Below are positions 19,347 to 44,496 of a DNA stretch of 64,000 bases, piece after piece. How positions within the stretch are numbered: position 1 is the first letter of the stretch; the number at the start of each line of letters is the position of its first letter. The notes beneath the pieces were generated by a model. That model did not search any database. It was not told where the DNA came from and worked only from the letters and a program-made list of their open reading frames with translations. The DNA is taken from the NCBI RefSeq assembly GCF_019212185.1, contig NZ_CP078138.1, positions 974,501-1,038,500 of the forward strand. Direction: 5' to 3'. A program made the position numbers and the translations under genes. Source of the stretch: Pseudomonas fluorescens. GTDB lineage: Bacteria > Pseudomonadota > Gammaproteobacteria > Pseudomonadales > Pseudomonadaceae.

Positions 19347-19425
19347 TCATGGTTGTCGGCGCCGGGGAATTGTCTGGGTACGCGGGAATTCAAAAGCCCC
19401 TGGCAGCGCTGAGATCCGTGTATTT

Positions 19426-19467
19426 ACTGGATTTCAGGCACAAAAAAAGACGTCCGTGGACGTCTTT
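19426..19467. repeat. Left island boundary (att repeat, copy of the ssrA terminator)
   Basis: A 42-bp sequence identical to 44046-44087. It contains the hairpin AAAGACGTCC GT GGACGTCTTT and a run of seven A that together form the ssrA terminator on the minus strand. The next 33 bp inward (19468-19500) are a decayed copy of the ssrA 3' end (GGTGG-GCCGGGG...TTGAA against GGTGGAGCCGGGG...TTGAA). This is what is left when an element integrates into the 3' end of a tmRNA gene. Confidence 0.9.
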
Positions 19468-20121: not shown

Positions 20122-21594
20122 GTGACTACCGTATACACCAAGATTCTTTCAAATACTCGATTCCGAACCTCCGAAGTTTCCGATCGTCATATTTTATTGG
20201 AGGCTGAAAGCGACAGGGGACGGCTTTTGTTCTGTCCGGCTTTCAGGAGGCTCCAGCAAAAGGCACAAGTCTTTTCGATGGAGTCCAACGCTTCGGTAAG
20301 GAGCCGGTTGACGCACTCCTTAGAAGTTGCTCAGGTTGGCCGTTACATTGCTGATCAGATTTCCATACAACTCATGGAGAAGAAGCTTGCCGAGAAAGAG
20401 GAATGTGCTGCTTTGACAACATTCGTCGAGACGGCGTGCTTGATGCATGACATTGGAAATCCACCATTTGGCCATTTCGGTGAGTTTGCAATTTCTGAGT
20501 GGTTCAAGATTAATGGTGTAGATGCGCTGAAATGCGCGTTTGAAGCGTCAGGTGTAGCGGGGGCTGAGACATATAAAAACCAAGCGCTTGCTGATTTTAT
20601 TGAGTTTGACGGCAATCCCCAAGGGATAAGGATTGTCACTAAGCTCCAGCGGAATAATGATGAGTTTGGTTTGAATCTAACCAAAACCACGTTAGCAGCC
20701 TACCTGAAATACGTGCGTACCAGCGGCATTAAGCCGGAAGAAGTTGAATCTCCATTTGTTAAAAAGTGTGGTTACTTCTCGACGGAGGTAGACATCGTCG
20801 AGAGTGTGTGGCGAGAGTTCGGCTACAATATCCCGCAGCGGTATCCTCTTGCATATATCATGGAGGCTGCTGATGATATCGCTTACTGTATCAGTGATCT
20901 CGAAGACTCGATTGAAAAGGGGTTATTGAACCAGTCTTCTGCATTGTCTGATATCGACAGCCAATGGCGGAGTGCTGGTTACGATAAATTAGAGTTCTCA
21001 AGTATCATCACAGCGGCGCTTACTAACGCCGCCAATGGTGAGAAACCAGATGGGAAGCCATATACGTTCACGGATTTTCGCACAAACCTGAATCGGGCGT
21101 TGGTTAATCATGCTGCGGAACAGTACATCATCCATCATGACGAGGTGCTGAGCGGGGCGATGTCTTCGTTAATTTCTGCGGAGTCGGCTTACGGAAAGAT
21201 TCTCGAGCTGTTGAAAGATTATTGCCGGGACCGGGTCTACTGCCACGAGAGCGTCCAGAAAATTGAGCTGGCTGGCTATAAGGCAATATCTGGCTTGCTT
21301 GAGCAATTCTCGTGCCTCCTTAAAATTGGTGAGGAGCGTTTTGCTCTGGCTTTGGATGGTCAAAAGAAAGATGAGCAAGGTCATAAGATTGTTATCGAAT
21401 CTAAATTGTTATCACTCTTTCCAAAAAGATATATTCAGGCTTATCGCGATGATCTGGCCAGGCTCTCTAGAGACGAAAGCTTCCATGTAAAAGAATGGGT
21501 GCTGAGGGCTCATCTGGTTACTGATTTCATTTCCGGTATGACAGATGACTTCTCGATTGATACCTATCAAACTCTGTCTGGAATCAAATTGTGA
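20122..21594 (+). CDS. Deoxyguanosinetriphosphate triphosphohydrolase (dGTPase) family protein
   Basis: A 490-aa HD-domain enzyme from a GTG start (TAGGA upstream). Metal ligands are visible: His65 in RLTHSLEVAQVGR, His109-Asp110 in CLMHDIGNPPFGHFGE, and the distal Asp in ADDIAYC. Length and motif order match the E. coli Dgt class, which hydrolyses dGTP to deoxyguanosine and triphosphate. Its place at the front of a defence island fits the known antiphage dGTPases that starve phages of nucleotides. The stop overlaps the next start (GTGA), so expression with the 191-aa partner is coupled. Confidence 0.85.
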   Translation: MTTVYTKILSNTRFRTSEVSDRHILLEAESDRGRLLFCPAFRRLQQKAQVFSMESNASVRSRLTHSLEVAQVGRYIADQISIQLMEKKLAEKEECAALTTFVETACLMHDIGNPPFGHFGEFAISEWFKINGVDALKCAFEASGVAGAETYKNQALADFIEFDGNPQGIRIVTKLQRNNDEFGLNLTKTTLAAYLKYVRTSGIKPEEVESPFVKKCGYFSTEVDIVESVWREFGYNIPQRYPLAYIMEAADDIAYCISDLEDSIEKGLLNQSSALSDIDSQWRSAGYDKLEFSSIITAALTNAANGEKPDGKPYTFTDFRTNLNRALVNHAAEQYIIHHDEVLSGAMSSLISAESAYGKILELLKDYCRDRVYCHESVQKIELAGYKAISGLLEQFSCLLKIGEERFALALDGQKKDEQGHKIVIESKLLSLFPKRYIQAYRDDLARLSRDESFHVKEWVLRAHLVTDFISGMTDDFSIDTYQTLSGIKL

Positions 21595-22166
21595 TATTAC
21601 GCTCCAAGGAACATCCCTACTGGCATGTGGCGGCTATGGTTGTCTTAAATGCCCAGCCAGTTGAGGCGGTAGAGTTAAGCTTCTATCACTACCTACCTCA
21701 ATCATTGACCGATACAAGGCATGTGGTGACCGTTGGGGTAGAGAATTTTTTGGACTTGATTTATATGGAGAGGTTAATAAAAAGCTGTCCGGCAGGAGCG
21801 GAGGTAGCGATTCATTCCAGAGTAAAAATGCTGAATGGCGAAATCAAGCATATTCCAATGATTGATCTGTCAACGGCGGCAGTGGCTCACCTTTCCAAAC
21901 TCAGGCCGTTCCTCGATGAGGATTTCGAAGGATTTGCATGGTTCAAAAGCGGTCGGTCATATCATGGTTACGGGGGTAGGTTCATCAACTCCGAAGAGCT
22001 CATAGACTTAATGGGACGGCTGCTCTTGGCTAACCAGATTGGAATGCCGCCAACGGTAGATCCGCGATGGGTCGGCCATCGTCTAATCGCTGGATATGCC
22101 GCTCTTCGATGGACGAAGAATACCTCCCAATACACCGACATCCCTCGCCGAGTTTTTCCGGTGTAG
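21591..22166 (+). CDS. Unrecognised 191-aa protein coupled to the dGTPase
   Basis: It begins at a GTG overlapping the dGTPase stop. The protein is soluble, with an alpha/beta pattern in the first 110 residues and a conserved-looking second half: WFKSGRSYHGYGGRF (about 122-136), then DPRWVGHRLIAGYAALRWT (about 157-175). The SGRSYHxY element and the DPxWxGH segment are reminiscent of the nucleotide-binding part of archaeo-eukaryotic-type primases, but the resemblance is weak and I would not name a function. The coupling suggests it is a regulator or partner of the dGTPase. Confidence 0.6.
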   Translation: MILRSKEHPYWHVAAMVVLNAQPVEAVELSFYHYLPQSLTDTRHVVTVGVENFLDLIYMERLIKSCPAGAEVAIHSRVKMLNGEIKHIPMIDLSTAAVAHLSKLRPFLDEDFEGFAWFKSGRSYHGYGGRFINSEELIDLMGRLLLANQIGMPPTVDPRWVGHRLIAGYAALRWTKNTSQYTDIPRRVFPV

Positions 22167-22663: not shown

Positions 22664-25600
22664 ATGGTTTTCAGTGAAGATTCGCGCGTCAAGATTCCCT
22701 GCATCTTGCACCTGGTTCGCCTGGGTTACAGCTACCTATCCCTGAAGGGTGCTTCCTGGGATCAGCAAACCAATATCTTTCCGGCGCTTTTTTGTTCTTC
22801 GCTGGCCAGGATCAACCCTGGCGTGGAAACCGATGACATCGACCGCCTGCTGGCGGAAGTCAAGCTCTTGCTGGACAACGAAGACCTCGGCAAGGCTTTC
22901 TACGACAAGCTCACCGAGCGCTCTGGCATCCGCCTGATCGACTTCGAGAATTTCGACAACAACAGTTTCCACGTTGTGACCGAGCTGCCATGCCGAAATG
23001 GTGATGATGAGTTCCGGCCCGACATCACCCTGCTTATCAATGGCATGCCGCTGGCCTTCATTGAGGTCAAGAAGCCCAACAACCGCGAAGGCGTGTTGGC
23101 TGAACGCAACCGCATCATCATGCGCTGTCGCAATCAGCGCTTCCGTCGTTTCATCAACATCACGCAGTTGATGGTCTTCTCCAACAACATGGAGTATGAA
23201 GACGGCTCGCCGCAGCCAATCGAAGGTGCCTTCTATGCCAGCCCTTCGTATGATTTGCCAATCTTCAACTACTTCCGTGAAGAGGAAGCATTGAATCTGG
23301 CCAAGCTGCTGGTTGCCGAAAATGACGACGTCGAGAACGCGGTTCTGCGCGACAACAATCTCAACGTCATCAAGCACAGCCCTGAATTTCTCAGTAACAA
23401 AGATCCTGATGCACCGACCAACCGCATATGCACGTCATTGTTCAGCCGACAACGGCTGGCGTTTCTACTGCGTTTTGCACTTGTCTATGTCAACGAGGCT
23501 GATGGGCTGCAAAAGCACGTCATGCGCTACCCGCAGCTTTTCGCCACTAAGGCAATTGAGAAGAAACTCGATGCTGGCGTACGCAAAGGCATCATCTGGC
23601 ACACCCAGGGCAGCGGTAAAACCGCGCTTGCCTATTACAATGCTCGCTTTCTGACGGACTACTTCCAGCGCAAAGGCATCATCCCCAAGTTCTATTTCAT
23701 CGTCGATCGGCTCGATCTGCTCACCCAGGCCCAACGCGAATTTGTTGGTAGGGGGCTGATTGTACACAGCATTGACACTCGTGAAGCCTTCGCTCGCGAC
23801 ATCAAGGCCACCCAGGTGCTGCACAACCACAGCGGCAGGTCAGAGATCACCGTGGTCAACATCCAGAAGTTCCAGGATGACCCGGACGTGGTGCGTACTG
23901 AGGATTACGACGTCAACATCCAGCGTGTTTACTTCCTTGATGAGGTGCATCGCAGTTACAACCCGCAGGGCAGTTTTCTCGCCAACCTCAGCCAGTCAGA
24001 CCGTAATGCCATCAAGATTGGTCTTACCGGCACCCCATTGTTAGGTGACGATCGTAACTCCCGGGCTTTGTTCGGTGACTACATCCACAAGTACTACTAC
24101 AACGCATCCATCGCCGACGGCTACACCCTGCGACTGATCCGTGAAGAAATTGCCACCAACTACAAGCTGGTCCTTCAGGAGGCGCTGGCCGCTGTCGAAC
24201 TGCAACAGGGTGACATTGACCGCAAGCTTGTCTACTCCCACCCAAAGTTCGTCGAGCCTATGCTCGAATACATCGTGCGTGATTTCGAAAAGAGCCGCGG
24301 TGCGCTGGCCGACGCCAGCATCGGCGGTATGGTGATCTGCGACAGCGCCGAGCAGGCCCGGCAGATGTTCGAGATATTCAACGACGCTCATGCCAGGCAG
24401 GGCCAGCCTACCCCCAAGCTCCAGAACTCCTCTCAAGTCTTGATCGCCGCCGAGCAGCGAGGCAGCTACGTCGCCCGTAGCCTACAGGAAAATCGCGTCA
24501 AGTCTGCCGCTCTGATCCTGCACGACATAGGCAGTAAGGAAGAGCGCAAGCAATGGGTGGAAGACTTCAAGGCGGGCAAGATCGACTTGCTGTTCGTCTA
24601 CAACATGCTGCTCACCGGCTTCGATGCCAAGCGCCTAAAAAAGCTTTACCTCGGTCGGGTGATTCGTTCGCACAACCTGTTACAGGCACTCACCCGCGTC
24701 AATCGTACCTACAAGGATTTCCGTTACGGCTATGTGGTCGATTTCGCCGATATCCGTAAGGAGTTCGACGCCACCAACAAGGCCTATTTCGACGAGCTTC
24801 AGGCCGAGCTAGGCGACGAGGTCGAGCACTACTCCAATTTGTTCAAATCTGCTGAAGAAATCGCCGAGGAAATCGAAGCGATCAAGGACATCCTATTCAG
24901 TTTCAACGTCGAAAACGCCGAAGAGTTTTCACGGCAAATCACCCAAATTCAAGATCGCGCCACGGTGCTGGCGCTCAAGAAGGCCCTGGCCGACGCCCGC
25001 AGCCTCTACAACCTAATTCGTCTACAGGGTGACTACACGCTCCTGCAACAGCTTGATTTTCAGAAGCTAAACCAGCTCTACCGCGAAACCTGCAACCACC
25101 TTGACCTGCTCAACCTGAAAGAGAGTATCGAATCCAGCACCGATACCGGTAACCTGCTCAACGTCGCATTGGAAGACGTGCTGTTCATGTTCAGAAAGGT
25201 CCGAGAAGAAGAGCTGGTACTGGCTGACAAGCTCAAGAACACTCTGCGCCAGACCCGCGAGGCCTTGGCTGATAACTTCGACCAGCAAGACCCCAAGTTC
25301 ATTACTCTCAGGGAAGAACTGGAGCGACTGTTCAAGAAAAAGAAACTCAACGAAGTCACCCAAGACGAAATGACTGCCAACATCGGCGCGCTCAACGCGA
25401 TTCACGATCAGGTCAAAGAACTCAATCGGCAGAATAATCAGCTGCGCGCCAAGTACCAGGGTGACGCGAAATACACCCGCATCCACAAACGTCTGCAAGA
25501 GCGCGGCGGTCTCACCCAAACCGAACGCCGCCTGTTTGAGGCACTCTCCGGTGTCAAACAGGCCGCCGACGAGCAGGTACTGCAGAACACCCAGTTAGTG

Positions 25601-25774
25601 AATAACGAAAGCTACTTCGAAGGGATGATGATGCCGCTTGTAATTGGCGAGTTCCAAATTCGCCAGAGAATCCAGCTCACTCCAGACGCTTCCCGCGCCA
25701 TTAACCAGTTGGTGGTGGCCGAATACATCAATGAATTTGCCTCCGGCACTCGAACAGGAACACGTACGTGGTAA
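22664..25774 (+). CDS. hsdR: Type I restriction enzyme, endonuclease/motor subunit HsdR
   Basis: A 1036-aa protein with the HSDR_N nuclease domain first (Asp120 and Glu134-Val-Lys136 of the PD-(D/E)XK site in RPDITLL...AFIEVKK), then a superfamily 2 translocase with Walker A TQGSGKT at about 315-321 and DEVH at about 425. Motif VI-like segments and a long helical C-terminus for binding the methylase follow. It cuts DNA after translocation when the recognition site is unmethylated. The end overlaps hsdM by 7 nt. No frameshift is visible. Confidence 0.92.
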   Translation: MVFSEDSRVKIPCILHLVRLGYSYLSLKGASWDQQTNIFPALFCSSLARINPGVETDDIDRLLAEVKLLLDNEDLGKAFYDKLTERSGIRLIDFENFDNNSFHVVTELPCRNGDDEFRPDITLLINGMPLAFIEVKKPNNREGVLAERNRIIMRCRNQRFRRFINITQLMVFSNNMEYEDGSPQPIEGAFYASPSYDLPIFNYFREEEALNLAKLLVAENDDVENAVLRDNNLNVIKHSPEFLSNKDPDAPTNRICTSLFSRQRLAFLLRFALVYVNEADGLQKHVMRYPQLFATKAIEKKLDAGVRKGIIWHTQGSGKTALAYYNARFLTDYFQRKGIIPKFYFIVDRLDLLTQAQREFVGRGLIVHSIDTREAFARDIKATQVLHNHSGRSEITVVNIQKFQDDPDVVRTEDYDVNIQRVYFLDEVHRSYNPQGSFLANLSQSDRNAIKIGLTGTPLLGDDRNSRALFGDYIHKYYYNASIADGYTLRLIREEIATNYKLVLQEALAAVELQQGDIDRKLVYSHPKFVEPMLEYIVRDFEKSRGALADASIGGMVICDSAEQARQMFEIFNDAHARQGQPTPKLQNSSQVLIAAEQRGSYVARSLQENRVKSAALILHDIGSKEERKQWVEDFKAGKIDLLFVYNMLLTGFDAKRLKKLYLGRVIRSHNLLQALTRVNRTYKDFRYGYVVDFADIRKEFDATNKAYFDELQAELGDEVEHYSNLFKSAEEIAEEIEAIKDILFSFNVENAEEFSRQITQIQDRATVLALKKALADARSLYNLIRLQGDYTLLQQLDFQKLNQLYRETCNHLDLLNLKESIESSTDTGNLLNVALEDVLFMFRKVREEELVLADKLKNTLRQTREALADNFDQQDPKFITLREELERLFKKKKLNEVTQDEMTANIGALNAIHDQVKELNRQNNQLRAKYQGDAKYTRIHKRLQERGGLTQTERRLFEALSGVKQAADEQVLQNTQLVNNESYFEGMMMPLVIGEFQIRQRIQLTPDASRAINQLVVAEYINEFASGTRTGTRTW

Positions 25775-27402
25775 CGCAAGAGTTTGAGCAACGCACCCGC
25801 CAACTGATCGACAGTCTCAAGGGCATCTGCGCTGCCTATGGCCTGGGCAACGATGGCAACGAATTCAAGATCATCACCCAGGTCTTTCTCTATAAGTTTC
25901 TCAACGATAAATTCACCTTCGAAGCCAAGAGAATCCGCCCCGAGCTAGGCCAGGCCCTCACTTGGGAGCAGGCTATGGCTAGTCTTAGCATTGATGAGTT
26001 GGAGATGCTGCAACTGCAGATGGGTCCGGATACGGCCCGCCTGAAGCCTGAACACTTTCTAGCCCATCTGTTCGGTCGGCAGAATGCTCCCGAGTTTGCC
26101 AAGCTGTTTGACGACACTCTGCAAGATATTGCCTTTACCAATAACGATATCTTTGCAGTGAAAACCGACGGCGGCGAGAAGATCAGGCTTTTTGATCGAG
26201 TCAGCGAATTCATCTCCGATCCGTCCAAGCGCGACAACTTTTGCCGCGCACTGATCAACAAACTGGTGGAGTTCAGCTTTGAGCGCATCTTCACCCAGAA
26301 GTACGACTTCTACGCAGCGCTTTTCGAATACCTGATCAAGGATTACAACAAGGACAGTGGTGGCAAATACGCCGAGTATTACACCCCGCACGCCGTGGCC
26401 AAGATCATGGCGGCCATCCTGGTGCCGGAGACTGCGCGCGGCAAAATCAGGAACGTGAGCTGCTATGACCCCTCCGCCGGCTCCGGCACCCTGTTGATGA
26501 ACATCGCCCACGCCATCGGGGAGCAGCGTTGCAGCATCTATTCGCAGGACATCTCACAAAAGTCCTCCAGCCTGTTGCGCCTGAACCTGATTCTCAACAA
26601 CCTGGTGCACTCCATCCCTAACATTATCCAGGGCAACACCATGCTCCACCCCTACCATCGGGAGGGCAAGGCGCTTAAAAAATTCGACTATATCGTCAGT
26701 AATCCACCGTTCAAGATGGATTTCAGCGATTTCCGTAACGAACTGGACAGCAAGGAGCATCTGGAACGCTTCTTCGCCGGAGTGCCGAGCATTCCCAAGC
26801 AGGCCGTCGACAAAATGGCCATCTACCAGCTGTTCCTGCAGCACATCATCCATTCACTTAAACCCGGCGGTAAAGCGGCTGTGGTAGTCCCCAGCGGCTT
26901 TATCACCGCGCAAAGCGGTATCGACAAAGCTATCAGGCAGCACCTGGTGGATAACAGAATGCTGGCAGGCGTAGTCTCAATGCCCAGCAACATCTTCGCT
27001 ACGACCGGAACCAACGTATCCATCCTGTTCATTGATGCCGCCAACAAAGAAAATGTGGTTCTAATCGACGCATCCGGCCTCGGCACCAAGGTCAAGGACG
27101 GCAAGAACCAAAAAACCTTGCTCTCAGACGCCGAGGAAGACCGGATCATTGCCGCCTTCAATGGCAAGCAAGCGGTGGAGCATTTCTCGGTAGTGGTGAG
27201 TTATGACGATATTAGCGCCAAAAATTACAGCCTGAGTGCCGGGCAGTATTTTGAGGTGAAGATCGAATACGTCGACCTGACGCCTGCACAGTTCGCCGCA
27301 AAGTTGCATGGATTTACTCACAATTTGGATAAATTGTTCAACGAATCAGCCGGGCTGGAACAGGATATCCGAAAAAAATTGGCGGGGTTGCGATATGAAT
27401 AA
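25768..27402 (+). CDS. hsdM: Type I restriction-modification, methylase subunit HsdM
   Basis: A 544-aa N6-adenine methyltransferase from a GTG start that overlaps the end of hsdR. It has an N-terminal helical HsdM_N domain, SAM-binding motif I YDPSAGSGTLL at about 232, and catalytic motif IV SNPPF at about 311. It methylates the target of the complex and with HsdS protects host DNA. It ends in a helix that would contact HsdS; hsdS begins 8 nt before its stop. Confidence 0.93.
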   Translation: MVTQEFEQRTRQLIDSLKGICAAYGLGNDGNEFKIITQVFLYKFLNDKFTFEAKRIRPELGQALTWEQAMASLSIDELEMLQLQMGPDTARLKPEHFLAHLFGRQNAPEFAKLFDDTLQDIAFTNNDIFAVKTDGGEKIRLFDRVSEFISDPSKRDNFCRALINKLVEFSFERIFTQKYDFYAALFEYLIKDYNKDSGGKYAEYYTPHAVAKIMAAILVPETARGKIRNVSCYDPSAGSGTLLMNIAHAIGEQRCSIYSQDISQKSSSLLRLNLILNNLVHSIPNIIQGNTMLHPYHREGKALKKFDYIVSNPPFKMDFSDFRNELDSKEHLERFFAGVPSIPKQAVDKMAIYQLFLQHIIHSLKPGGKAAVVVPSGFITAQSGIDKAIRQHLVDNRMLAGVVSMPSNIFATTGTNVSILFIDAANKENVVLIDASGLGTKVKDGKNQKTLLSDAEEDRIIAAFNGKQAVEHFSVVVSYDDISAKNYSLSAGQYFEVKIEYVDLTPAQFAAKLHGFTHNLDKLFNESAGLEQDIRKKLAGLRYE

Positions 27403-28582
27403 TTGGCAACCAATGACCATTGGTCATTTTTTATCGCTGCAGCGGGGATATGATCTAACTGGAGATGAACGAGAAGTTGGCAATATTCCCGTAGTGGGTG
27501 CCGCCGGTCAGAATGGCTTTCACAATAAAGCGCTTGCGTCAGCGCCGGGCATTGTTGTGGGTCGATGCGGGGGATCATTTGGTCAGGTGTACTTTTCAAA
27601 GGAAGACTTCTGGCCGCACAACACCGCAATGTTCGTTACGGACTTCAAGGGCAATGATCCGTATTTTGCTTATTACCTCCTGAAGAACATTGACTTTAGC
27701 AAGCTGAATTCAGGTAGCGCGCAGCCTTCCCTGAATCGAAATTATGTCTACCCAATAAAAATTACTGTTCCCAAACCGCCTGAACAAAGAAGAATCGCCG
27801 CCGTCCTTTCCGCTTTGGATGCCAAGATCGACTGCAACAATCGTATCAACGCCGAACTGGAGATGATGGCTAAGACGCTGTACGACTACTGGTTCGTGCA
27901 GTTCGACTTCCCTGATGCCGATGGCAAACCCTACAAGTCCTCTGGCGGCAAGATGAGCTATAACGCCACCCTGAAGCGCGCGATCCCCGAGGGCTGGATG
28001 GATGGCACCTTGAATGATCTCGGACAGATTGTCGGCGGTAGCACGCCGTCAACGAAAAAGCCGGATAACTTCACTACCAATGGTACGCCGTGGATCACTC
28101 CTAACGACCTGTCCGATAATCAGGGCAACAAGTTCATCACCCGAGGCGCACAAGACGTTTCCTTCAATGGAATTAAGGACGCATCGCTGAAAAAATACCC
28201 TCCAGGAACAGTTTTGCTCAGTTCCCGTGCACCTATTGGTTATATGGCTATCGCCCGAGCTGAGCTGACCACAAATCAGGGCTTCAAATCTTTTATTCCC
28301 AGCAATGGCTACTCTTCCGCATTCATTTACTACACCGTCATGAACTCCTTGAAAGCCATTACTCAGTACGCATCTGGATCAACCTTCAAAGAGGTATCTG
28401 GGGCTGTCTTGAAAACAGTGAAAATCACGCGGCCAGAGCGGAGTCCTGTCGAGGAATTCACTAAGCGTGTAGAGCCGTTTTTTCGGCGGCAAGATTTGCT
28501 CGAACAGGAAAACCAGCAACTCACCCAGCTTCGCGACTGGCTGTTGCCCATGCTGATGAACGGCCAAGTCACGGTGGCTTAA
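27395..28582 (+). CDS. hsdS: Type I restriction-modification, specificity subunit HsdS
   Basis: A 395-aa protein; the start is set at the ATG at 27395 overlapping hsdM. Two target-recognition domains are visible, each followed by a conserved helix: PPEQRRIAAVLSALDAKIDC with its spacer helix in the middle, and a second at the C-terminus (EFTKRVEPFFRRQDLLEQENQ...LRDWLLPMLMNGQV). The two domains read the two halves of a bipartite target, which cannot be deduced here. The gene appears intact. Confidence 0.9.
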   Translation: MNNWQPMTIGHFLSLQRGYDLTGDEREVGNIPVVGAAGQNGFHNKALASAPGIVVGRCGGSFGQVYFSKEDFWPHNTAMFVTDFKGNDPYFAYYLLKNIDFSKLNSGSAQPSLNRNYVYPIKITVPKPPEQRRIAAVLSALDAKIDCNNRINAELEMMAKTLYDYWFVQFDFPDADGKPYKSSGGKMSYNATLKRAIPEGWMDGTLNDLGQIVGGSTPSTKKPDNFTTNGTPWITPNDLSDNQGNKFITRGAQDVSFNGIKDASLKKYPPGTVLLSSRAPIGYMAIARAELTTNQGFKSFIPSNGYSSAFIYYTVMNSLKAITQYASGSTFKEVSGAVLKTVKITRPERSPVEEFTKRVEPFFRRQDLLEQENQQLTQLRDWLLPMLMNGQVTVA

Positions 28583-28975: not shown

Positions 28976-29064
28976 AACACGGGATGCCCGACCGCTTACC
29001 GAGCGCCCAAGGTTGTATCTGGTTGTCAGGTAGTCAGACGCGGTTGCCAGCGCCTAACCCTTGA

Positions 29065-29098
29065 GAACCGTGCATGTGAGTTTCCTAGCACACGGCTC
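29065..29098 (-). mobile_element. Group II intron domain V remnant (minus strand)
   Basis: On the minus strand the 34 nt begin GAGCCGTGTG and end CACGGTTC, with a central AGGAAACT, a close match to bacterial group II domain V. It is a different intron from the one at 28730, as the stems differ. No RT gene is nearby. Confidence 0.6.
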
Positions 29099-29440
29099 AA
29101 GCCTCTGCTAAGGCGCCACTTTTCGTTTACCGATTCGGGCATCAGTTGCGTAACGCAGAAAATCGTTGTGGGCGGACGATTGAACCAAAGTTGCCACGAA
29201 GTTCGGCTTTGGCACGGGCGGCGGCTATTTCAAGCATCTGACGGTCAGCCGCATAGACAGCGTCCACCTGACGGTCACGTGAGCTGCTTTTAGGGTCTTC
29301 ATCTCCACTACCCATAAGGGTGGAAATTAAGCTTGGTTTTGAGATTAGCACGCTCAGCCGGGGCATTTGCAGCTGAAGAGCTTTGATCGCAAGGCTTTAC
29401 CCGACGAGAGTAAGCATACGGCCAACTCACCTTGCGTAAG

Positions 29441-30736: not shown

Positions 30737-33100
30737 TCAGGACTTGTCGGGAAGCGCTTCCTCCTTCGGTATCGAGGTGTTAATCATCCTGTTCCACCAT
30801 TCACCGAGGATCTGATCCATACGGAATGCAACGTCACTAATTTGCGAGTCTGTAGAAGTTTTTACGATTGACGCCACTGTCTTCAAGCGCCAGGCGAGGA
30901 AGACCAGCTCTTCATCTAACGCATACCCTACAAGCTGCTCGAACTCTTTCGGACGCCATGATGCATGGGAGTACATCGCTTGCATTATGGGCTCGACAAT
31001 TCCGCTTGACGGACATAATAGCGAGCCAATGCCGGGAACCTCATGGGAGTGTAGGCCAGGAAACTCAGCGAAGTTGCTTGGCGACGGCCTGTAGATAAGA
31101 TCTTCATGGTTGCCGAGTTTGGCAAAAATTTTCATGTTCACTGACGCGCCATCGTCACCAAAGTCCGCGGGAAATGCGGAAAGATGGCTCAGAACAAGCC
31201 ATGGTTGCATATCCCCAGGGATTCGTTCATTCATACCCTCTCCGAAATGAAGGCGAATACCCTTTTTATCCTTGGCCAACAGTTCGATCACTGCGCCTTC
31301 TCTCAGCCAAGACTCTTCTGGTAGGTACTCAGTGAGAGCTTCAAATATCAAGGCGAGACGTTGGTCATTGTCGATACGGATTATCGCGGCAGCAGCGCAG
31401 AGGTCACCATAGGGCACAATATGCGAATGCTGAAGAATCCGATTGAGTACTACCAAAATCATTTCATCATCTGCGCTACGCAACGCAGTTGTCCAGTGTA
31501 AAGACACGTGATGTGCCAAGAGTTCTGGAAAGCGCAGCACCAGTCTAGGGCCCAGTGTTCGCGTATCGGACCAATGAATCATGCCTTGCTTGGAAAGTCG
31601 CTCAATTCGTTGCTCCCCAAGGGCTCGCTCCAAAATATCGGGATCGACTGAGGGCACGCCATAGGTTTCCACCATACGATTCTTGTCTGAACCGTTCTCT
31701 TCAACATCAGTCAGGAATGCGGATGCCAGCCGCGACAAGTCATGCTTCAGTTTTGCATCGGCACCAAAAAGCATGCTTGCTCTTTCCAGCATCTTTACGC
31801 CAGGTATCGGGGGGAGAGCGTTGCTGGTTATGTACTCATCTCCAGACTCTGTTTTACGTATCTGGCGGGGGGCATTTGGCGGAACCTGCGAGGCCACGAT
31901 TCGCAGATGACGAGGACTGCGCAAGTCGGGAACAAGCTCAGCGCCGGGTAGAAAGACCGCATTGGATGAGTTAAACAGGAGTTTGCAAGCGATTTCGAAT
32001 TCACCTGCCGATAACTCTGTTAGCACCACTTCTTCGGCCAAACGACCTAGAGTGGTTTCTTCGGCTCGCCCAGGCAGCATGCGTAGGGACTCAAAGCTCC
32101 AGCTATCCATGCCAAATACTAGATGTAGCGAATTGGCTTCTGCCAGTTGAAGCAATTCCTCAAGCCCGCTGGAGGGGGCACTATCAATTAGCAGCGTCAA
32201 TCCAGATAGAGACTGGCCAGTGATAAGCCATTGCCTCACGTCGTCTCTGGAAATTCCTATGGATAACTCGCGGCTAAGGCGGCCGGCGATAAACTGCAGA
32301 ATATCTCCGGCGTTTCTACTATCGATGTAGATGCAGCCAGCAAATGTGAGCGCCTCCACCATTTGAGCCATGGCGCAAGTCACCCCCGAAAGTGGAGGCC
32401 CATGCAGAACGACAACCTTTGCTCCCTTGTTGAGCATACCGTTGACTACACCAACAGCTTCGCGCGGAATCTGAAAATTCTCAGCAATTGCACGACGGAA
32501 ATCACCCAACGCTCCTTTGCGTCTACTGATTTCTTCCAGATTCCATTTGTTTATTATTTCTTTCCATACTGCCGGTTCGCTTCCCAGCAAGCCTCGAATA
32601 GCGCTGTCTACTGAACTGGCTGCCAAAGCAGATGCAGCGGAAAGGATCTTGTTAAGACCATCTGAATCAGTGCGATCATGTGACAGCAACGATCCGTCAT
32701 AAGTCAGGACCAGCCGAGTGCTCTCCTGGTCTCCATTTGTCACCAACACCAACGGAACCATCGGTTGATGTAGGCGAGCGTAGGAAAGCCCTTGAGCTAC
32801 GTCCTCGTCGGTGATCGGTACATTGGGAGCTTTCAGCTCAGCCAATAACAGCGGCTTGTCATCTCGGAAGACAACTACATCAGATCTCCCTTTAAGGCCT
32901 TTTTTCTGTTCACTGAGACCATTCACTGTGACTTCATGATGCCCCAGCTTCAGGTGTAGGTATCGCTCCGCACGAATATCTGATGGCAGTAAAGGCAACG
33001 CCTCGCGAAGACGGGTGATAATAGATGCTTGGAAATCTGCTTCATTAATCGCCGGTTTTGGGGGGCGCTGCTTCGAGGAGTCTGTCTTTTTCCCTGCCAT
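30737..33100 (-). CDS. HsdR-N-type nuclease fused to a large P-loop-like (STAND-like) protein
   Basis: A 787-aa protein; the start at 33100 has AAGGA 6 nt upstream. Residues about 20-135 form a restriction-type nuclease domain with Asp74 (GRSDVVVF) and Glu88-Leu-Lys90 (LLLAELKAPN). A linker leads to a nucleotide-binding-like fold: GPPLSGVTC at 234-242 occupies the Walker A position but has Val where the catalytic Lys should be, and LTLLIDSAPSSG at about 302-313 would be Walker B. The C-terminal 450 residues are helical with no family I recognise. The architecture recalls nuclease-effector STAND (Avs-like) defence proteins. It is monocistronic. Confidence 0.65.
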   Translation of the reverse strand: MAGKKTDSSKQRPPKPAINEADFQASIITRLREALPLLPSDIRAERYLHLKLGHHEVTVNGLSEQKKGLKGRSDVVVFRDDKPLLLAELKAPNVPITDEDVAQGLSYARLHQPMVPLVLVTNGDQESTRLVLTYDGSLLSHDRTDSDGLNKILSAASALAASSVDSAIRGLLGSEPAVWKEIINKWNLEEISRRKGALGDFRRAIAENFQIPREAVGVVNGMLNKGAKVVVLHGPPLSGVTCAMAQMVEALTFAGCIYIDSRNAGDILQFIAGRLSRELSIGISRDDVRQWLITGQSLSGLTLLIDSAPSSGLEELLQLAEANSLHLVFGMDSWSFESLRMLPGRAEETTLGRLAEEVVLTELSAGEFEIACKLLFNSSNAVFLPGAELVPDLRSPRHLRIVASQVPPNAPRQIRKTESGDEYITSNALPPIPGVKMLERASMLFGADAKLKHDLSRLASAFLTDVEENGSDKNRMVETYGVPSVDPDILERALGEQRIERLSKQGMIHWSDTRTLGPRLVLRFPELLAHHVSLHWTTALRSADDEMILVVLNRILQHSHIVPYGDLCAAAAIIRIDNDQRLALIFEALTEYLPEESWLREGAVIELLAKDKKGIRLHFGEGMNERIPGDMQPWLVLSHLSAFPADFGDDGASVNMKIFAKLGNHEDLIYRPSPSNFAEFPGLHSHEVPGIGSLLCPSSGIVEPIMQAMYSHASWRPKEFEQLVGYALDEELVFLAWRLKTVASIVKTSTDSQISDVAFRMDQILGEWWNRMINTSIPKEEALPDKS

Positions 33101-33266
33101 ATCGTCCTTCACAAACTGCATTGAGTTGGCCGAAGCTCAGTCGGGGCCCGGTCGATTGTCCTGCTCTGTTAGTAGCATACCTGTAGACAGAGCGGCTGGA
33201 ACTGGCCTAGACCAGATTGATTGACAGTCGGCCAGTCACTATGGATTCTCAGTCTGCTTCTGATCC

Positions 33267-33444
33267 GATTCTGTTGAATAAGTCGGGCATGGTTTGCGCG
33301 TCGGAAAAGTACGCGTCCGAGATTGAAATATTTACTTTTGGCAGAGGCTTCCAGGCGCGGATTTCACGTAGCAGCGTGCAAAAAAGGCGTTTTCACCCGT
33401 CAATGGTCAGGCAGTTTGTGCAGACCGACTTTTTCAACAGAATC
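33267..33444. mobile_element. MITE, copy 1 (178 bp)
   Basis: Bounded by imperfect 20-bp terminal inverted repeats, GATTCTGTTGAATAAGTCGG and CCGACTTTTTCAACAGAATC (one mismatch). There is no transposase inside. It shares the TIRs and an internal block (AGTACGCGTC[C/G]GAGATTGAAAT) with 37628-37805 in the same orientation; both copies are 178 bp long. Confidence 0.75.
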
Positions 33445-33731
33445 GATCCGAAAGCAACCTTTCAAGCTGGCTGCCATTCATCCAAGCGATCAACAGAATT
33501 AGCACCCTGAGGCCAATCTCAAAAGCACTCAATTGCTGGCGCGAAAATTGAGCACCTTGGACACCTCGTAGCTTACGACGCGTGCCTTGATGCCCGTCCT
33601 TCTCTACTGGCCGTTTTTTGCCATTGCGGCGGTGTGCTTCGAGCAGGTTCATTCAGCAAGAGAATGTCCACGCTGAGATAGATGAAGGTGGACAAGCGAG
33701 CCTGGAGGGTTGCCTATCCATGATTCGAGCG

Positions 33732-37157: not shown

Positions 37158-37521
37158 AACAGGTTGGCGCAAGGAAATGGCCAAGCGGATAGGTTGCTGC
37201 AGGGCAGCTATAAAGGGGTATGAGTTGCCGCAGTGGCACTCTGGTAGAAGTAGGCATCCATCACATCACTGTGAGCGTGCGAGCCGCCGGACGCTAATCG
37301 CACTTGGGGAGAACCACCACGATGTGGCGTAGCCTCAAAGGTTCTGGCTACCTGGGTGCTGTCGAGGACAGCGCTGGTACAGTTCTGGTTTAGCGCTCGT
37401 TCTGCTCGCGGTCAACCGTATTTTGGGGGTGGCTGTTGCGCCAATCGGTAGCGCTGGAAGACCTAGGAGGCCGGTGGCTTTCCATGGCCGGGGTAGTCGT
37501 TCATCGGGATTTAATATGAGC

Positions 37522-37597: not shown

Positions 37598-37627
37598 CGC
37601 CGTAGTGACGACTGGCGGAGAACGGCC

Positions 37628-37805
37628 GATTGTGTTGAAAAAATCGGCCATGGTTTTTAAGGCAGAAAAGTACGCGTCGGAGATTGAAATCCTGAATGTC
37701 CGCAGAGCCTTTCAGGCTGAGATTTCACGAAGAAGCGTGCTGAAGAGGCGCTTTTACCTACCCATCCTGCGGCATCCTGAGAAACCCGACTTTTTCAACA
37801 GAATC
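37628..37805. mobile_element. MITE, copy 2 (178 bp)
   Basis: Terminal inverted repeats GATTGTGTTGAAAAAATCGG and CCGACTTTTTCAACAGAATC, two mismatches. The layout and internal block match the copy at 33267-33444. Its right end lies inside the reading frame of the PD-(D/E)XK gene and supplies that gene's last 15 codons or so and its stop. Confidence 0.75.
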
Positions 37806-38408
37806 GACCAAAAGCAGACCTTCACGTTTTACTCTGGTACGAGAATGCGCCCGCTGACCCAATTGTTTTTTCTCGCACCGCTCAAGCCAGTCGAGGATGT
37901 GCTCCCGGTACGACAGTCGACGGTAGCTCGCGTCGCAATGACTGGTTGCGTGCGCCTCCGTGCCTTTCTTTGTCAGGTACCACAACTGCCAATTCTTGCC
38001 TGAGGCCTTGCCAATATCGTCATAACGCTTCAGTTGTTGGTTGCCGTCGAGGGCGTCGATCTTGTTTTCAATAAGGATGAGGTGATCCCTCAGGTGAATC
38101 ACCACATCAACACGACCATACCCCGCGAACGTCTGCTCCTTTTGCACCCTAGCCTCGCTGAGGCTGCATTCATGCGCAAACCCCATTGTCGACAAGAACA
38201 GTTCGAGGAAGTGCACGCCTTGACCGTGACGGCCCTCGGGGCTTAATAGTTCTGCGATCATCGCCGAATGAGTGTTGACCTCGGCCCGCTCGATTCGGGT
38301 GATGCTGAAGAGGTTGAACAGCTCACCGCTTGCTGCGAGCTTGGTCTTCGCCTCCCTCACCAGGCCGCCGGCCTGATCCAACAACAACTGTACTTTCTCC
38401 ATGCTCAC
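37758..38408 (-). CDS. PD-(D/E)XK nuclease family protein, 3' end replaced by a MITE
   Basis: A 216-aa product from a GTG with GGAG 5 nt upstream (ATG 38402 is possible). The nuclease core is complete: Asp101 in GRVDVVIHL, Glu114-Asn-Lys116 in LILIENKID and the following QQLKRYD helix, as in the PDDEXK_4 family whose members often sit in defence islands. Family members are usually longer. From residue 202 the coding sequence is MITE DNA, so the natural C-terminus has been lost. Whether it still works is unknown. Confidence 0.7.
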   Translation of the reverse strand: MSMEKVQLLLDQAGGLVREAKTKLAASGELFNLFSITRIERAEVNTHSAMIAELLSPEGRHGQGVHFLELFLSTMGFAHECSLSEARVQKEQTFAGYGRVDVVIHLRDHLILIENKIDALDGNQQLKRYDDIGKASGKNWQLWYLTKKGTEAHATSHCDASYRRLSYREHILDWLERCEKKQLGQRAHSRTRVKREGLLLVDSVEKVGFLRMPQDG

Positions 38409-38901: not shown

Positions 38902-41097
38902 ATGTACCATGACGATCGCGAAATAACTGCCGAGAAGCAGATCGAAACGCTTGAAGCACAGGTGATGAAACTTACGGATATTCCGGATGAAGCGCGGCTC
39001 ATGCTAATGCTGATTCTCATCGCAAGATTCGCAAAAAATTCCTATAAGTTGCAGGAGTTGTCCGATAAGTTGTTGCTTGAGAACCCTGTCCTTGCTTCGA
39101 TCACCGGCAACACATTCGACCAGCTTCTGTTTGAAAGCCAGCGCATCGTCGGATTTAGTGATGACGCCAACTACTTGCTCACCCATTTAGCTGCGAAATC
39201 GATTTCATCCGAATTGGGCATCGACTATCGTCACCCCAAACTAGTCGCTGCATTCGTCGGGACAGTGCAATCGACATTATCGACCCCTCTATTCGAGGCC
39301 ATGCCAAACACCGGGGAGCTTTCGCTTGGGCTTCTCGGTGCCTATTCAAAAGATTCTTTTCTGATGTTTGGCGGCATTCCAGAGCGCCAGCGTGATCTAA
39401 TCAGCATCCGTCTGGAAGCGATCGACGTTAGAGCTAACTTTACGTCCATTAACTACCGTCAAATTCCTCAATCAACTGTGCTGTTGGACGCGCCCTACAC
39501 TAATTTCTCGCTTGCGATTGAGGAGGTGCTGAAAAACCACGTGCAAGGTCGATTGGTGCTCATTCAAAACTGGGCCCGCGCAGAAACCGGTGAGATCTGG
39601 CAAAAGTTGATGGCAATGATCAAACACCGCGGTGTAGAGACAATCATCAATTTTAGTAGTTTGCCCACAACTTCAGACCAGTGCACGGCAATCATTATCA
39701 ATACCAGCCCCGTCCATCGCGAAACCCTGTACATCGATGTTTCCATGTCAAACAAATCGTTGCCTCCACTGGATGGTATCGAGCGCATGCTTCTGGCCGG
39801 GTGTATCTATAACCTGTGGCAAGGACGTCTTGCCCACAGTAATACCGATTATCTTTCCGACAACGTTTCGCGCTTTCTCAACAGTTATTTCAGCGAAGGT
39901 TTCAGGCCGATCTCAGGACTGTGCAACACCGTAGACAAACGGCCTAAGACTATCTCGAAAACGCGTTTGGTCAGCCGCGCATTTCTTAAGGCGGCGCCAG
40001 GCGAATCCTCTCGGCCAACGCAGACTAATAACAGCAGCATGATTCGAGAGACGCTGAAGCGGCGCGGAGATCGTTGCTGTGTTTATGTCATTGGCAACAA
40101 TGGCGAAGGCAAAAGCTTCTTGCTCAGAGATATCGTGTATCAGCTAGAAGAGGCCCAAAAACGTAGCATTGGTCTTCCAATGTCTCACGCTGACCGCTTC
40201 CCAATTACGGACAAGTCAATCAATCGCTTCTTCGAGTACAAAGGTGCGCGTAAGACCCAGATCGTGAAAGAAGTAGGAATGATTTCGTCCCAGCCGCGCA
40301 AAATTGGTTTGCTGAGCGAATGCCTGGAGTTGATCGGATTCGGTGTGCAAATTTACCTAACCTTGAAATCGGAACTGAGTCATGACCGTTTCGGCGAGCC
40401 GAGGAAAAATACGCTCGACCTGGGTAACGAAGGCGATATGCGGTATCTCAACAGGGATAAAGCCTCGATCAGCAAATATGAAGTCAACTTCATCCGCAAA
40501 GGGCACCGTACTGTCCTTTTCGATAATCTCAGTTCCGGGGAGCAAAGCATCCTTAGCTTGCTGATCAAAATCATCGCCTCGGACGCCGAACACGCGACCT
40601 TTTTGATCGATGAGCCGGAAATCAGCCTGCACGTCAGTTGGCAGCAAACGCTCCCACGGATCCTCAGCCTCCTGAGCAGTCGCCTGAATGCATCCTTCGT
40701 AGTCGCTACTCACTCGCCAATCCTAATCGCCAACGCTGCGGACGACGATGTCTGCTACGTGTCGAGGATAGGCAGATTGGCTGAAATCCCCATCGCTGAA
40801 CGCCATTCAGTGGAAACACTGCTGATGGACGGTTTTGAGACCTATACCCCACATAACCGGGAGGTGCACGAGCGTTGCGCGAAGCTGGTAGCGTATCTTA
40901 TCTCGGCTTCCAACAAATCCGATTCAGTTGGACAGGCTAACGAGGCAATCGCAAAACTCGAAACATTCAAAGCAACCATCGAGAAAAACAGATTTGATGT
41001 AAACAACAAGCGCAAAGCCAGCGATCTTGATCTCGTCGAAAAGACCATCGGAGCGATCTCGATGCTACGTGATGAAAGCAGGCCGCGTAATGGCTGA
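38902..41097 (+). CDS. ABC-type ATPase (PtuA/Septu-like) with a degenerate methyltransferase-like N-terminal domain
   Basis: A 731-aa protein. Residues 1-340 follow the plan of an HsdM-type N6-adenine methyltransferase with broken motifs: FEAMPNTGEL (131-140) in place of motif I, then IRLEAIDV, DAPY (196-199) in place of NPPY, and GRLVLIQNWA...ETIINFSSLPTT aligning with the HsdM segment after motif IV. Residues 390-640 are an SMC/ABC-like ATPase: Walker A GNNGEGKS (398-405), signature SSGEQS (544-549), Walker B FLIDEPE (Asp570-Glu571) and H-loop VATHSP (about 603). A helical tail follows. Overlap with the HNH gene makes this a Septu-like pair. The start is uncertain. Confidence 0.7.
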   Translation: MYHDDREITAEKQIETLEAQVMKLTDIPDEARLMLMLILIARFAKNSYKLQELSDKLLLENPVLASITGNTFDQLLFESQRIVGFSDDANYLLTHLAAKSISSELGIDYRHPKLVAAFVGTVQSTLSTPLFEAMPNTGELSLGLLGAYSKDSFLMFGGIPERQRDLISIRLEAIDVRANFTSINYRQIPQSTVLLDAPYTNFSLAIEEVLKNHVQGRLVLIQNWARAETGEIWQKLMAMIKHRGVETIINFSSLPTTSDQCTAIIINTSPVHRETLYIDVSMSNKSLPPLDGIERMLLAGCIYNLWQGRLAHSNTDYLSDNVSRFLNSYFSEGFRPISGLCNTVDKRPKTISKTRLVSRAFLKAAPGESSRPTQTNNSSMIRETLKRRGDRCCVYVIGNNGEGKSFLLRDIVYQLEEAQKRSIGLPMSHADRFPITDKSINRFFEYKGARKTQIVKEVGMISSQPRKIGLLSECLELIGFGVQIYLTLKSELSHDRFGEPRKNTLDLGNEGDMRYLNRDKASISKYEVNFIRKGHRTVLFDNLSSGEQSILSLLIKIIASDAEHATFLIDEPEISLHVSWQQTLPRILSLLSSRLNASFVVATHSPILIANAADDDVCYVSRIGRLAEIPIAERHSVETLLMDGFETYTPHNREVHERCAKLVAYLISASNKSDSVGQANEAIAKLETFKATIEKNRFDVNNKRKASDLDLVEKTIGAISMLRDESRPRNG

Positions 41098-41890
41098 ACT
41101 TACCCAGGAAGCCATGGCATCCGTGCTCGTGCGGTATAAAAACGAGTGCCATGAGCGCAAAGCACATCGCGAAAACACGTTGTTGCATTTTGCGGCCCAG
41201 AATGCTCGGGCAATTGATGAGTTCAAACGGCGCCAAAGAAGATTACCTGCCTCCAACACAGATCTGTGGGCTGAGTTAACCAGGTACGAGAAGGATAAAA
41301 AATCAGGCGTGACAGGCCCGCTGATCCGCAAAGCCCTGCGCGCATTCCTTGAGAAAGAACAGAACAGTCTGTGCTGCTATTGCCAACGTCCACTGGTCAA
41401 TATCGCCCATGCTAAACCTATCGAGCACATTCTCCCGCGCGTAGATTTTGTCCAATACACCTTCCACTTTTGGAACCTGGCGGTTGCCTGTTTCGACTGC
41501 AACCAGATCAAGCTTGACGATGTCTGGGTCAATGACGATAAACGTGACTTGGAGACCTACCCGGCCCCGGCTACATTCACCGAGATGTACCATCCCAGGT
41601 TCCACACGTTCGCCGAGCATGTACGGTTCATTCGGGTACAGACCAATGAGCAAATTATATCGATCTACGTTGGCATCACGGTCCAAGGTCAGCAGTTGTG
41701 TCTTAAGCTGCTCAAGGATCTCTCGGCCCGCGAGATAGTGCTCAATAGCAATCCGGAACTCAAAGCGGCGCTGGAAGTAATAAACATCCACGCGTCCACG
41801 AATGAGGGCTCACTGCCCCCGGAACTGGAGGCCTTCCACAAGGCGCTAGCGGAATCAACGTCGCAGTTGATTAAAACCAGCACCAGATAG
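41090..41890 (+). CDS. HNH nuclease (PtuB-like), partner of the ATPase
   Basis: A 266-aa protein starting at an ATG that overlaps the ATPase stop by 8 nt (ATG 41072 is an alternative). The HNH/zinc site is clear: LCCYCQR (Cys95/98), IEHILPR (Glu112-His113), FWNLAVAC (Asn129) and CFDCNQ (Cys134, Cys137, Asn138), as in McrA/PtuB-type nucleases. In Septu systems an ATPase PtuA activates the PtuB nuclease against phage. The same division of labour is inferred here from coupling and motifs. A strong terminator follows at 42009-42034. Confidence 0.8.
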   Translation: MAELTQEAMASVLVRYKNECHERKAHRENTLLHFAAQNARAIDEFKRRQRRLPASNTDLWAELTRYEKDKKSGVTGPLIRKALRAFLEKEQNSLCCYCQRPLVNIAHAKPIEHILPRVDFVQYTFHFWNLAVACFDCNQIKLDDVWVNDDKRDLETYPAPATFTEMYHPRFHTFAEHVRFIRVQTNEQIISIYVGITVQGQQLCLKLLKDLSAREIVLNSNPELKAALEVINIHASTNEGSLPPELEAFHKALAESTSQLIKTSTR

Positions 41891-42654: not shown

Positions 42655-43911
42655 TCACCGTATCGGCACGACGTTGTGGTCCCTGGTTTGATTGATCGCA
42701 GATGCCGACAGGTTTCCAGTGGCCGCTTTTTGGATGTGCTCACTCCACCAAGCCATCATCGGACGCCGGCGTTCGATGTAGTCAGCTCGGTTGTAAGCGC
42801 TTCGGACTTCGTCCTTGTCGACATGCGCCAGTGCGACTTCGATCAGCTCCGGATCCCACCCATGCTCGTTCAGGATGGTGCTGGCCATGGAGCGCATGCC
42901 GTGGCTGACCAAGCGGTCCTGGAAGCCCATGCGTTTCAACGCCATGTTGGCGGTCTGGCTGTTGGCGTGGGTGCGCGGATTTCTATCTGCCGGGAACACG
43001 TATTCCCTGTGGCCGCTGAGGGGCTTGAGCGCCTCCAGTAACGCGAGTGCCTGTTCGGTCAGCGGGATGGTGTGCGGACGACGCTTTTTCATGCGCTCCG
43101 GCGGGATGGTCCAGATGCGTTTGTCAAAGTCGATGTCTACCCATCGGGTGGTAGCCGCCTCGGCAGGACGGGTCATCGTGTGCAGTTGCCATTCGATCAG
43201 GCAGCGAGTGATCCGCTTGATGCTGGCATTCGCGATTTCCAGAATGAGCTCCGGAAGCTCATCAGGTGCAAGCGCAGCCATATTCTCTTTCTTCGGCTTC
43301 TTGAATACCGCCCGGATACCGCTGAGGGGATTCGCGAAGATCATTCCTGAGTTGACCCCGTAGGTCATGATCTCGTTGAGCCGTTGGCTCAGCCGTTTCA
43401 CTGTTTCCAGGCTGCCTTTGGCTTCGATTGGACGAAGGAGCTTGACCACCATCGGTGCGCTGACTTCCGAGATCGGTGTCGATTTCATGCTCGGAAAAAC
43501 GTGCAGTGTGAGTGAGCGCCAGATGTCTTCAGCATACGCCGGCGTGACCGAGTCCTTCTTCAGCTCGAACCAGGCGGTGGCCACATTCTCGAACGTGTGT
43601 TCTGTCTCCGCTCGTTTGGCTTGCACCAGCTCGTTGCGTTGAGCTTTGGGGTCGATGCCTTGCGCCAACAGCTCTCTGGCCTCAACCGCTTTCTTCCGGG
43701 CTTGCGCCAGAGAAACCTCGGGATAGGAGCCGAGCGCCATGTTGATTCGATTCTTGGTAACGGGATGCCGGTAGTTGAAGTTCCACTGCATCGAGCGATT
43801 GACTCGGACGCGGAGCTGAAGCCCGTCACCATCGGTGAGGACGTAGTCCTTGTCTTTGGGTTTGACAGCCTTGAGCTGACGGTCCGAGAGGCGGGCGGTT
43901 TGAGCGCGCAT
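42655..43911 (-). CDS. P4-type tyrosine integrase of the island
   Basis: A 418-aa integrase: an N-terminal DUF4102 arm-binding domain (LSDRQLKAVKPKDKDYVLTD; GDGLQLRVR), a SAM-like core-binding domain at about 105-190, and a catalytic domain with TRPAEAA (Arg), HGMRS (HxxR), LAHVDKDEVRSAYNRADY (His and Tyr nucleophile). It lies between 135 and 176 bp from the att repeat and reads away from ssrA, as is usual for integrases of islands at tRNA or tmRNA genes. Repeated GGAATACCAAT motifs just upstream of its start are probably its arm sites and may also control it. Confidence 0.9.
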   Translation of the reverse strand: MRAQTARLSDRQLKAVKPKDKDYVLTDGDGLQLRVRVNRSMQWNFNYRHPVTKNRINMALGSYPEVSLAQARKKAVEARELLAQGIDPKAQRNELVQAKRAETEHTFENVATAWFELKKDSVTPAYAEDIWRSLTLHVFPSMKSTPISEVSAPMVVKLLRPIEAKGSLETVKRLSQRLNEIMTYGVNSGMIFANPLSGIRAVFKKPKKENMAALAPDELPELILEIANASIKRITRCLIEWQLHTMTRPAEAATTRWVDIDFDKRIWTIPPERMKKRRPHTIPLTEQALALLEALKPLSGHREYVFPADRNPRTHANSQTANMALKRMGFQDRLVSHGMRSMASTILNEHGWDPELIEVALAHVDKDEVRSAYNRADYIERRRPMMAWWSEHIQKAATGNLSASAINQTRDHNVVPIR

Positions 43912-43988: not shown

Positions 43989-44045
43989 GTGGCTGGAACT
44001 CAAAAACCCTCTGCGGAGCCCAGTAGCGCTTAACCCTTTGATTTC

Positions 44046-44087
44046 ACTGGATTTCAGGCACAAAAAAAGACGTCCGTGGACGTCTTT
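44046..44087. repeat. Right island boundary (att repeat over the ssrA terminator)
   Basis: Identical over 42 bp to 19426-19467. It is the native rho-independent terminator of ssrA (minus strand: 10-bp stem, 2-nt loop, seven T) and ends 11 bp from the ssrA CCA. Confidence 0.9.
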
Positions 44088-44098
44088 AGATGATTAAG

Positions 44099-44496
44099 TG
44101 GTGGAGCCGGGGGGATTTGAACCCCCGTCCGCCAGTACTCCGCTGTCGGTACTACATGCGTAGCCGTGTCTATTAAGTTAACCCTCAGCGACCCGACGGG
44201 CAGGGTGCTTTGGGCGAGTTGTGTAAGTTTTAGCCGCTTCGTCCACAACGTACTGCACGGCGATTCTGTTCTATATGACAATCACTTTGGGTTTACAGAC
44301 ATCCCCTGGTGATTGCTGGACCCGAAGGTACCAGAAGCTCAGGATCTAAGGCTGCTTACGCAGCGATAGCGAATTCCTGGCCGTAGTTTTCGTCATTGGC
44401 AACTATAAGAAGTTGCAACAGTGGATTTACGAGTTCTGTTACCAACTCGGCATGCACCTAAAGTTTCGCAACCAGCGTCGAATCCAAAACGGCCCC
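44099..44496 (-). ncRNA. ssrA: Transfer-messenger RNA (tmRNA)
   Basis: On the minus strand the RNA runs from GGGGCCGTTTTGGATTCGACG at 44496 to a terminal CCA at 44099, about 398 nt. The 3' end contains the tRNA-like T-arm GTTCAAATCCCC (GGGGGTTCAAATCCCCCC). The reading frame resumes at GCC and encodes the tag ANDENYGQEFAIAA followed by TAA. With SmpB (53.8 kb) it frees stalled ribosomes and tags the peptides for proteolysis. The gene is intact despite the island at its 3' side. Confidence 0.95.

Follow-up and report, generated by a model that had tools for sequence, protein, structure and literature searches.

Several described systems couple an ABC ATPase to a nuclease. In Septu type I, the ATPase PtuA and the HNH nuclease PtuB are encoded by adjacent, co-directional genes, and the same effector pair is found in Septu type II (retron I-A), which is defined by a reverse transcriptase according to the authors of PADLOC (PMC8565338). 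PtuAB from another source has been reported to target nicked DNA (PMC11555353). In PARIS, a related ABC ATPase (AriA) controls the TOPRIM nuclease AriB, and in PrrC-EcoprrI, as described, an ABC ATPase nuclease is linked with a methylase complex of type I (PMC2610378). A 2026 BREX survey reports OLD-ABC ATPases paired with HNH proteins and cites earlier ABC-anchored systems that resemble restriction-modification (R-M) (PMC12839542). Here we describe a two-gene unit of Pseudomonas fluorescens in which a Septu-like ATPase, followed by a PtuB-like HNH nuclease, carries an N-terminal domain with the predicted fold of HsdM, the type I R-M methylase subunit, and without its catalytic motifs. The unit lies in a 64,000-nucleotide (nt) stretch of contig NZ_CP078138.1 (positions 974,501 to 1,038,500), referred to as the window; all coordinates are positions in the window, and L and P numbers are labels of related loci and proteins, respectively.

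A Septu-like ATPase–HNH gene pair

The ATPase gene (38902..41097, + strand, ATG start) encodes 731 amino acids, and its stop codon ends 8 nt into the HNH gene, which runs on the same strand from the ATG at 41090 to the stop codon at 41888–41890 (41090..41890) and encodes 266 amino acids. The PtuA-like ABC half of the ATPase (residues 376–731, 40027..41094, +) contains the Walker A motif GNNGEGKS (residues 398–405, 40093..40116, +), the ABC signature LSSGE (residues 543–547, 40528..40542, +), the Walker B motif LIDEPE (residues 568–573, 40603..40620, +) and the sequence ATHSP (residues 602–606, 40705..40719, +). The complete ABC motifs and the gene overlap had been reported in an initial annotation of this DNA, and both were confirmed together with their coordinates. 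Pfam identified AAA_21 in the ATPase (E 1.6e-15), and the best PADLOC families of the two proteins were PtuA1 (PDLC00273, E 7.8e-34) and PtuB1 (PDLC00325, E 6.2e-25).

In the HNH protein, CCYC (residues 95–98, 41372..41383, +), IEH (residues 111–113, 41420..41428, +) and N129 (41474..41476, +) are invariant in all 14 aligned HNH proteins, as are CxxCN and K141. By analogy with other HNH proteins, IEH likely holds the catalytic histidine, and N129 is likely the catalytic asparagine. The Pfam HNH model scored 18 bits, under its cut-off of 21.4. The HNH gene lies immediately 3′ of the ATPase gene in 12 of 14 loci with the fused architecture (the window, L003, L100, L101 and L103–L110); the two others are L004, a fragment, and L102, which is cut off by the end of a contig. 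Two compact ATPases, L111 and L112, are also followed by an HNH gene. Two features of Septu type I are present, namely Walker A, signature and Walker B motifs in the ATPase and a neighboring HNH protein with IEH...N, and the PADLOC matches, gene order and HNH motifs bear out the earlier assignment of the pair as Septu-like.

The unit looks self-contained. No recurrent third gene was seen at most loci, where a rarer association could be missed, and HsdS/Methylase_S was absent from the 20 neighbor proteins scanned. Most of these neighbors are transporters, receptors, oxidoreductases or regulators; defense-like proteins occur beside L104, L106 and L110. A promoter scan found none, against 2.7 expected. 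The pair is flanked upstream by a PDDEXK_4 gene on the other strand and downstream by an integrase gene. A retron was rejected because no reverse transcriptase adjoins the pair; Pfam detected none among the 19 window proteins scanned, and retron RNA (msr-msd) had no match in the window at the gathering thresholds of Rfam, which may not cover such RNAs. PARIS was rejected because the partner is an HNH and not a TOPRIM protein. The solved AriA chains comprise 464 residues, compared with 731 in the window ATPase.

The N-terminal domain resembles HsdM

The window ATPase differs from Septu type I by ∼365 additional N-terminal residues of HsdM fold, the solved PtuA being 465 amino acids long. This pseudo-HsdM region (residues 1–365, 38902..39996, +) is composed of a helical N-terminal part (1–105), a methyltransferase-fold core (106–345) and an HsdM-like C-terminal end. 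Its predicted fold matches HsdM over the whole length, including the helical part and the C-terminal end, so the structural comparison with methyltransferases, suggested at the outset as a check, did not point to an unrelated fold. Pfam did not detect N6_Mtase in the window ATPase. Among 17 relatives scanned singly, four (P0031, P0034, P0042 and P0043) scored over the cut-off of this model, and in alignment A3, which has 38 members, 8 matched it with E values up to 1. When a profile of 45 N-terminal sequences was aligned to 32 HsdM-type rows with hhalign, the probability was 97.4 (E 1.3e-11), and the 260 matched columns begin ahead of motif X and extend to the C-terminal end of HsdM. With only the 22 distant members, the probability was 98.3. 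In the controls, 40 column shuffles did not exceed 0.2 (0.8 for the window's own clade), and the reversed profile gave 0.1. The 45-sequence profile left out L103 and L104 (no match to the Walker pattern), the partial P0023 and P0024, and L003, L100 and L108, and frames containing X were omitted from both the profile set and the tree described below. Homology to HsdM is thus shown through more distant relatives, at the level of sequence profiles, and by the predicted fold.

Within this fold the methylase motifs have been lost. The position of motif I reads AMPNTGEL (residues 133–140, 39298..39321, +), which lacks GxG, and that of motif IV reads DAPY (residues 196–199, 39487..39498, +), as the initial annotation had it. 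In the window's clade of 23 sequences, the G of NTGEL is A in 20, G in 2 and S in 1, and only the D of motif IV is constant, with the variants DALY, DAPD, DAAV, DSIH, DAIS, DATS and DWPL. The likeness of the window sequence to methylase motifs is therefore partly luck. An active methylase was rejected, as a pattern search found canonical motif I (DPxxGxG) in none of 50 proteins, the window included (L103, P0023 and P0024 were left out of this set). The [ND]PP[YF] pattern found DPPF at motif IV in 4 of the 50, all from one subfamily; these proteins (P0034 and P0041–P0043) have (D/N/E)P-T-x-G at motif I and perhaps represent a less decayed stage. An SPPH in P0026, found with the pattern [NDS]PP[YFWH], was discounted, as it is off the motif IV position of that protein.

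Conservation across the domain is uneven. The mean majority-residue share in the clade is 0.93 at the motif X position (GIDYRHPKLVA, 39217..39249, +), 0.86 at motif I and 0.74 at motif IV; the core averages 0.72 and the ATPase 0.76. Beyond the last strand, residues 283–305 are as well conserved, at 0.94, and residues 289–306 and 333–341 were noted as conserved blocks. Judged from these sequences, the former cofactor site may retain some use, though apparently not in SAM (S-adenosylmethionine) chemistry.

Ancestry and distribution of the fusion

Homologs with the same domain order, which the initial annotation had proposed to look for, were found, and the fused group contains members with 21–29% identity to the window ATPase. 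In a tree of the ATPase half (21 fused and 11 compact rows), all fused proteins are on one side of a branch with support of 97/93, and the compact L111 and L112 adjoin the fused group. Among the compact rows, L112 and L152 are one protein, and long branches that meet there were flagged. An HsdM-type subunit apparently became attached N-terminally to a compact PtuA on a single occasion. In the single unsaturated pair (L003–L100), the ratio of nonsynonymous to synonymous substitution rates (dN/dS) was lowest in the ATPase (0.13), with 0.19 in the HNH protein and 0.21 in the N-terminal half. Of four pairs, three had a higher dN in the N-terminal half than in the ATPase; the exception was L003–L100, in which the N-terminal half is higher in dN/dS only. 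The pseudo-HsdM domain has apparently been kept under selection.

With the family profile at E 1e-40, 14 of 398 Pseudomonas genomes were matched; 2 of these have the compact form, and the match includes the N-terminal part in the other 12, one of which carries an in-frame stop. At E 1e-25, the class sample yielded 1 of 369 genomes, the genome of the window itself, and the phylum sample 2 of 398, the same genome and an ATPase-only match in the same genus. At most two candidates were scored per genome, so these counts are lower bounds and do not imply absence elsewhere. Protein searches found at least 44 sequences, two of them partial, to which a further search contributed no more; among the sequences that carry an organism name, 11 are from Pseudomonas and 1 (P0039) is from Cupriavidus. 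The PtuA1 profile matched 10 of 149 genomes of the genus, and TIGR04435 (restriction-associated ATPase) matched 2 of 143, one of them above the cut-off. The family was unmatched in plasmids at an E limit of 1e-20 and in phages at 1e-10. From viral contigs, 80 of 96 loci were kept, and every match was in the ATPase half, from which alone the scan patterns were derived.

Proposed function

The fusion, its predicted fold, the loss of motifs, the conservation and the gene pairing were established computationally. From homology to PtuAB, the pair should be an ATPase-controlled nuclease, and the two genes probably form a self-contained anti-phage unit of the Septu kind. We consider it fairly probable that the dead HsdM serves as a sensor or docking domain of this nuclease. 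A type I HsdM subunit would have been fused ahead of a compact PtuA, then lost its catalytic motifs, and been retained under selection. The PtuA-type ABC ATPase would control the PtuB-type HNH nuclease, and the non-catalytic pseudo-HsdM domain would set the moment at which the ATPase releases or activates this nuclease. Once freed, the nuclease would cut tRNA or DNA, as characterized PtuAB do. The most probable cue would be a ligand of the HsdM surface, such as DNA or an HsdM-targeting protein of a phage, rather than SAM or a methyl mark.

Several observations weigh against this interpretation. The pair falls short of the NCBIfam cut-offs for PtuA (28.4 bits compared with 500) and PtuB (38.9 compared with 150), in which it differs from Septu type I, although both models are equivalogs of retron Ec78 and describe the retron form. 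The PtuB chains in the PDB matched the HNH protein with E 0.13 at best, and the closest solved relatives of the ATPase by sequence were AriA of PARIS first and PtuA second. In the fold comparison (VIA), which re-aligns the chains ranked highest by Foldseek, PtuA was among the structural matches of the ATPase model, including PtuA of retrons Ec83 and Ec78, but its rows were level with those of other ABC ATPases (two such entries reach 13.3, for example), and PtuA is thus not distinguished by fold alone. A helix immediately precedes the Walker A strand in the predicted model, a further difference from Septu type I; ABC heads usually have strands before it. For the N-terminal domain, the profile of the window's clade alone (23 sequences) aligned to HsdM with an hhalign probability of only 2.2, its score of 26.5 compared with a shuffle maximum of 21.2. 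The clade has thus diverged past recognition as HsdM by sequence, and the link goes through its relatives; by that route and by the predicted fold, the original proposal of an HsdM-type N-terminal domain lacking the catalytic motifs has held. The net charge of the N-terminal half is about −3 and gives no hint of a surface that binds DNA strongly. In one of the 12 fused genomes (L108, genome G279), an in-frame stop splits the ATPase, with the HNH gene still following. Finally, the domain could be merely structural.

The explanation that survives best beside a general sensor or docking role is a specific form of it, in which pseudo-HsdM acts as bait: it would mimic the methylase attacked by phage anti-restriction proteins such as Ocr, ArdA and Stp, and their binding would trip the ATPase and free the nuclease. 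We regard this as possible but unlikely. A decoy requires a fold without catalysis, which matches the observed motif loss, and Ocr is reported to occupy the DNA groove of the type I methyltransferase core (PMC3874165). There are precedents in AriA, which is described as sensing Ocr (PMC11455837), and in PrrC, which a type I R-M enzyme reportedly silences and an anti-restriction factor of a phage activates (PMC2610378); in PrrC-EcoprrI, however, the R-M enzyme is separate, whereas in the window ATPase a single M-like domain is covalently attached. Several of the closest PDB entries are Ocr or ArdA complexes (7bto, 7bst, 7eew, 7btr and 2y7c), but this reflects which structures happen to be available and does not count as a sign of binding by the window ATPase. 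On the other hand, type I HsdM is not commoner in carriers: of 12 carriers, 5 have HsdM_N (PF12161, a marker that misses the window's own HsdM), compared with 30 of 48 non-carriers (the first 48 of 384). The slightly negative pseudo-HsdM also contrasts with AriA, which is thought to bind Ocr through positively charged residues (PMC11455837). DNA docking or scaffolding would explain the domain roughly as well as bait.

A pure scaffold, required for assembly (e.g. ATPase dimerization or HNH docking) and sensing nothing, seems to us rather improbable. The conserved blocks at residues 289–306 and 333–341 lie away from motifs I and IV, and a fixed fusion has been retained across deep divergence, both as expected of such a role; however, L111 and L112, tree neighbors of the fused group, share the gene order without a pseudo-HsdM domain, and the higher dN of the N-terminal half in most pairs is a weak hint of a sensor. 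The remaining explanation, put forward in the initial annotation, that the dead methylase senses SAM or methylation state and gates the nuclease, is very doubtful, since the HsdM fold, the conservation of motifs X and I above the core, by which the former cofactor side may matter, and the DPPF of one subfamily are outweighed by the absence of the motif I GxG from all 50 proteins, a motif IV that drifts within the clade, and RHPK and PNTAEL as the cofactor-side sequences of the clade.

The favored sensor or docking role would mean that a restriction methylase has been recycled into a different immune system, in which it has no enzymatic task. To our knowledge, the trigger of Septu is still open, and a sensor-like domain fused to PtuA makes it directly testable by domain swap or deletion. 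If the bait mechanism were true, the domain would be an integrated bacterial decoy through which the phage's own strike at restriction sets off the HNH nuclease, and this sensor would define the unit as a type of Septu, a covalent counterpart of PARIS and PrrC-EcoprrI. Among the literature matches listed, no title or abstract opening mentions an HsdM–PtuA fusion or a named Septu subtype of this architecture; to that extent the earlier suggestion of a new Septu variant stands, with an earlier mention elsewhere possible.

Genomic context

The pair sits in a 24.6-kb island beside the transfer-messenger RNA (tmRNA) gene (44099–44496), with the integrase (42655–43911) at one end. The island is flanked by direct repeats (19405–19491 and 44025–44111) that are 79% identical over 87 nt and have a long identical core. 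It also contains a type I R-M set (hsdR, hsdM and hsdS; 22664–28582) with normal family matches. The pseudo-HsdM region shares with type I HsdM the whole-length fold, and differs by the loss of motifs I and IV, the fusion to an ATPase and flanks formed by the PDDEXK_4 and integrase genes instead of hsdS. A dGTPase gene of the island (20122–21594) adjoins a gene for a small protein of AEP-like primase fold (21591–22166, +).

The PDDEXK_4 nuclease gene, which also belongs to the island (37758–38408, − strand), matches the PADLOC candidate PDC-S26 over only about half of the profile length, so it is possibly truncated; such a gene is also found next to the relative L106. Within the island, a 197-nt direct repeat, 74% identical, occurs at 33265–33461 and 37626–37822, and a radC RNA motif (Rfam RF01754, 73.8 bits) at 37254–37385 (−). 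A Group II intron fragment (RF00029, 43.4 bits compared with a cut-off of 40; 29025–29100, −) was matched near a C-terminal remnant of IS66. HSDR_N_2 is the only domain recognized by Pfam in a 794-amino-acid protein (30737–33121, −), whose gene adjoins a DUF4238 gene.
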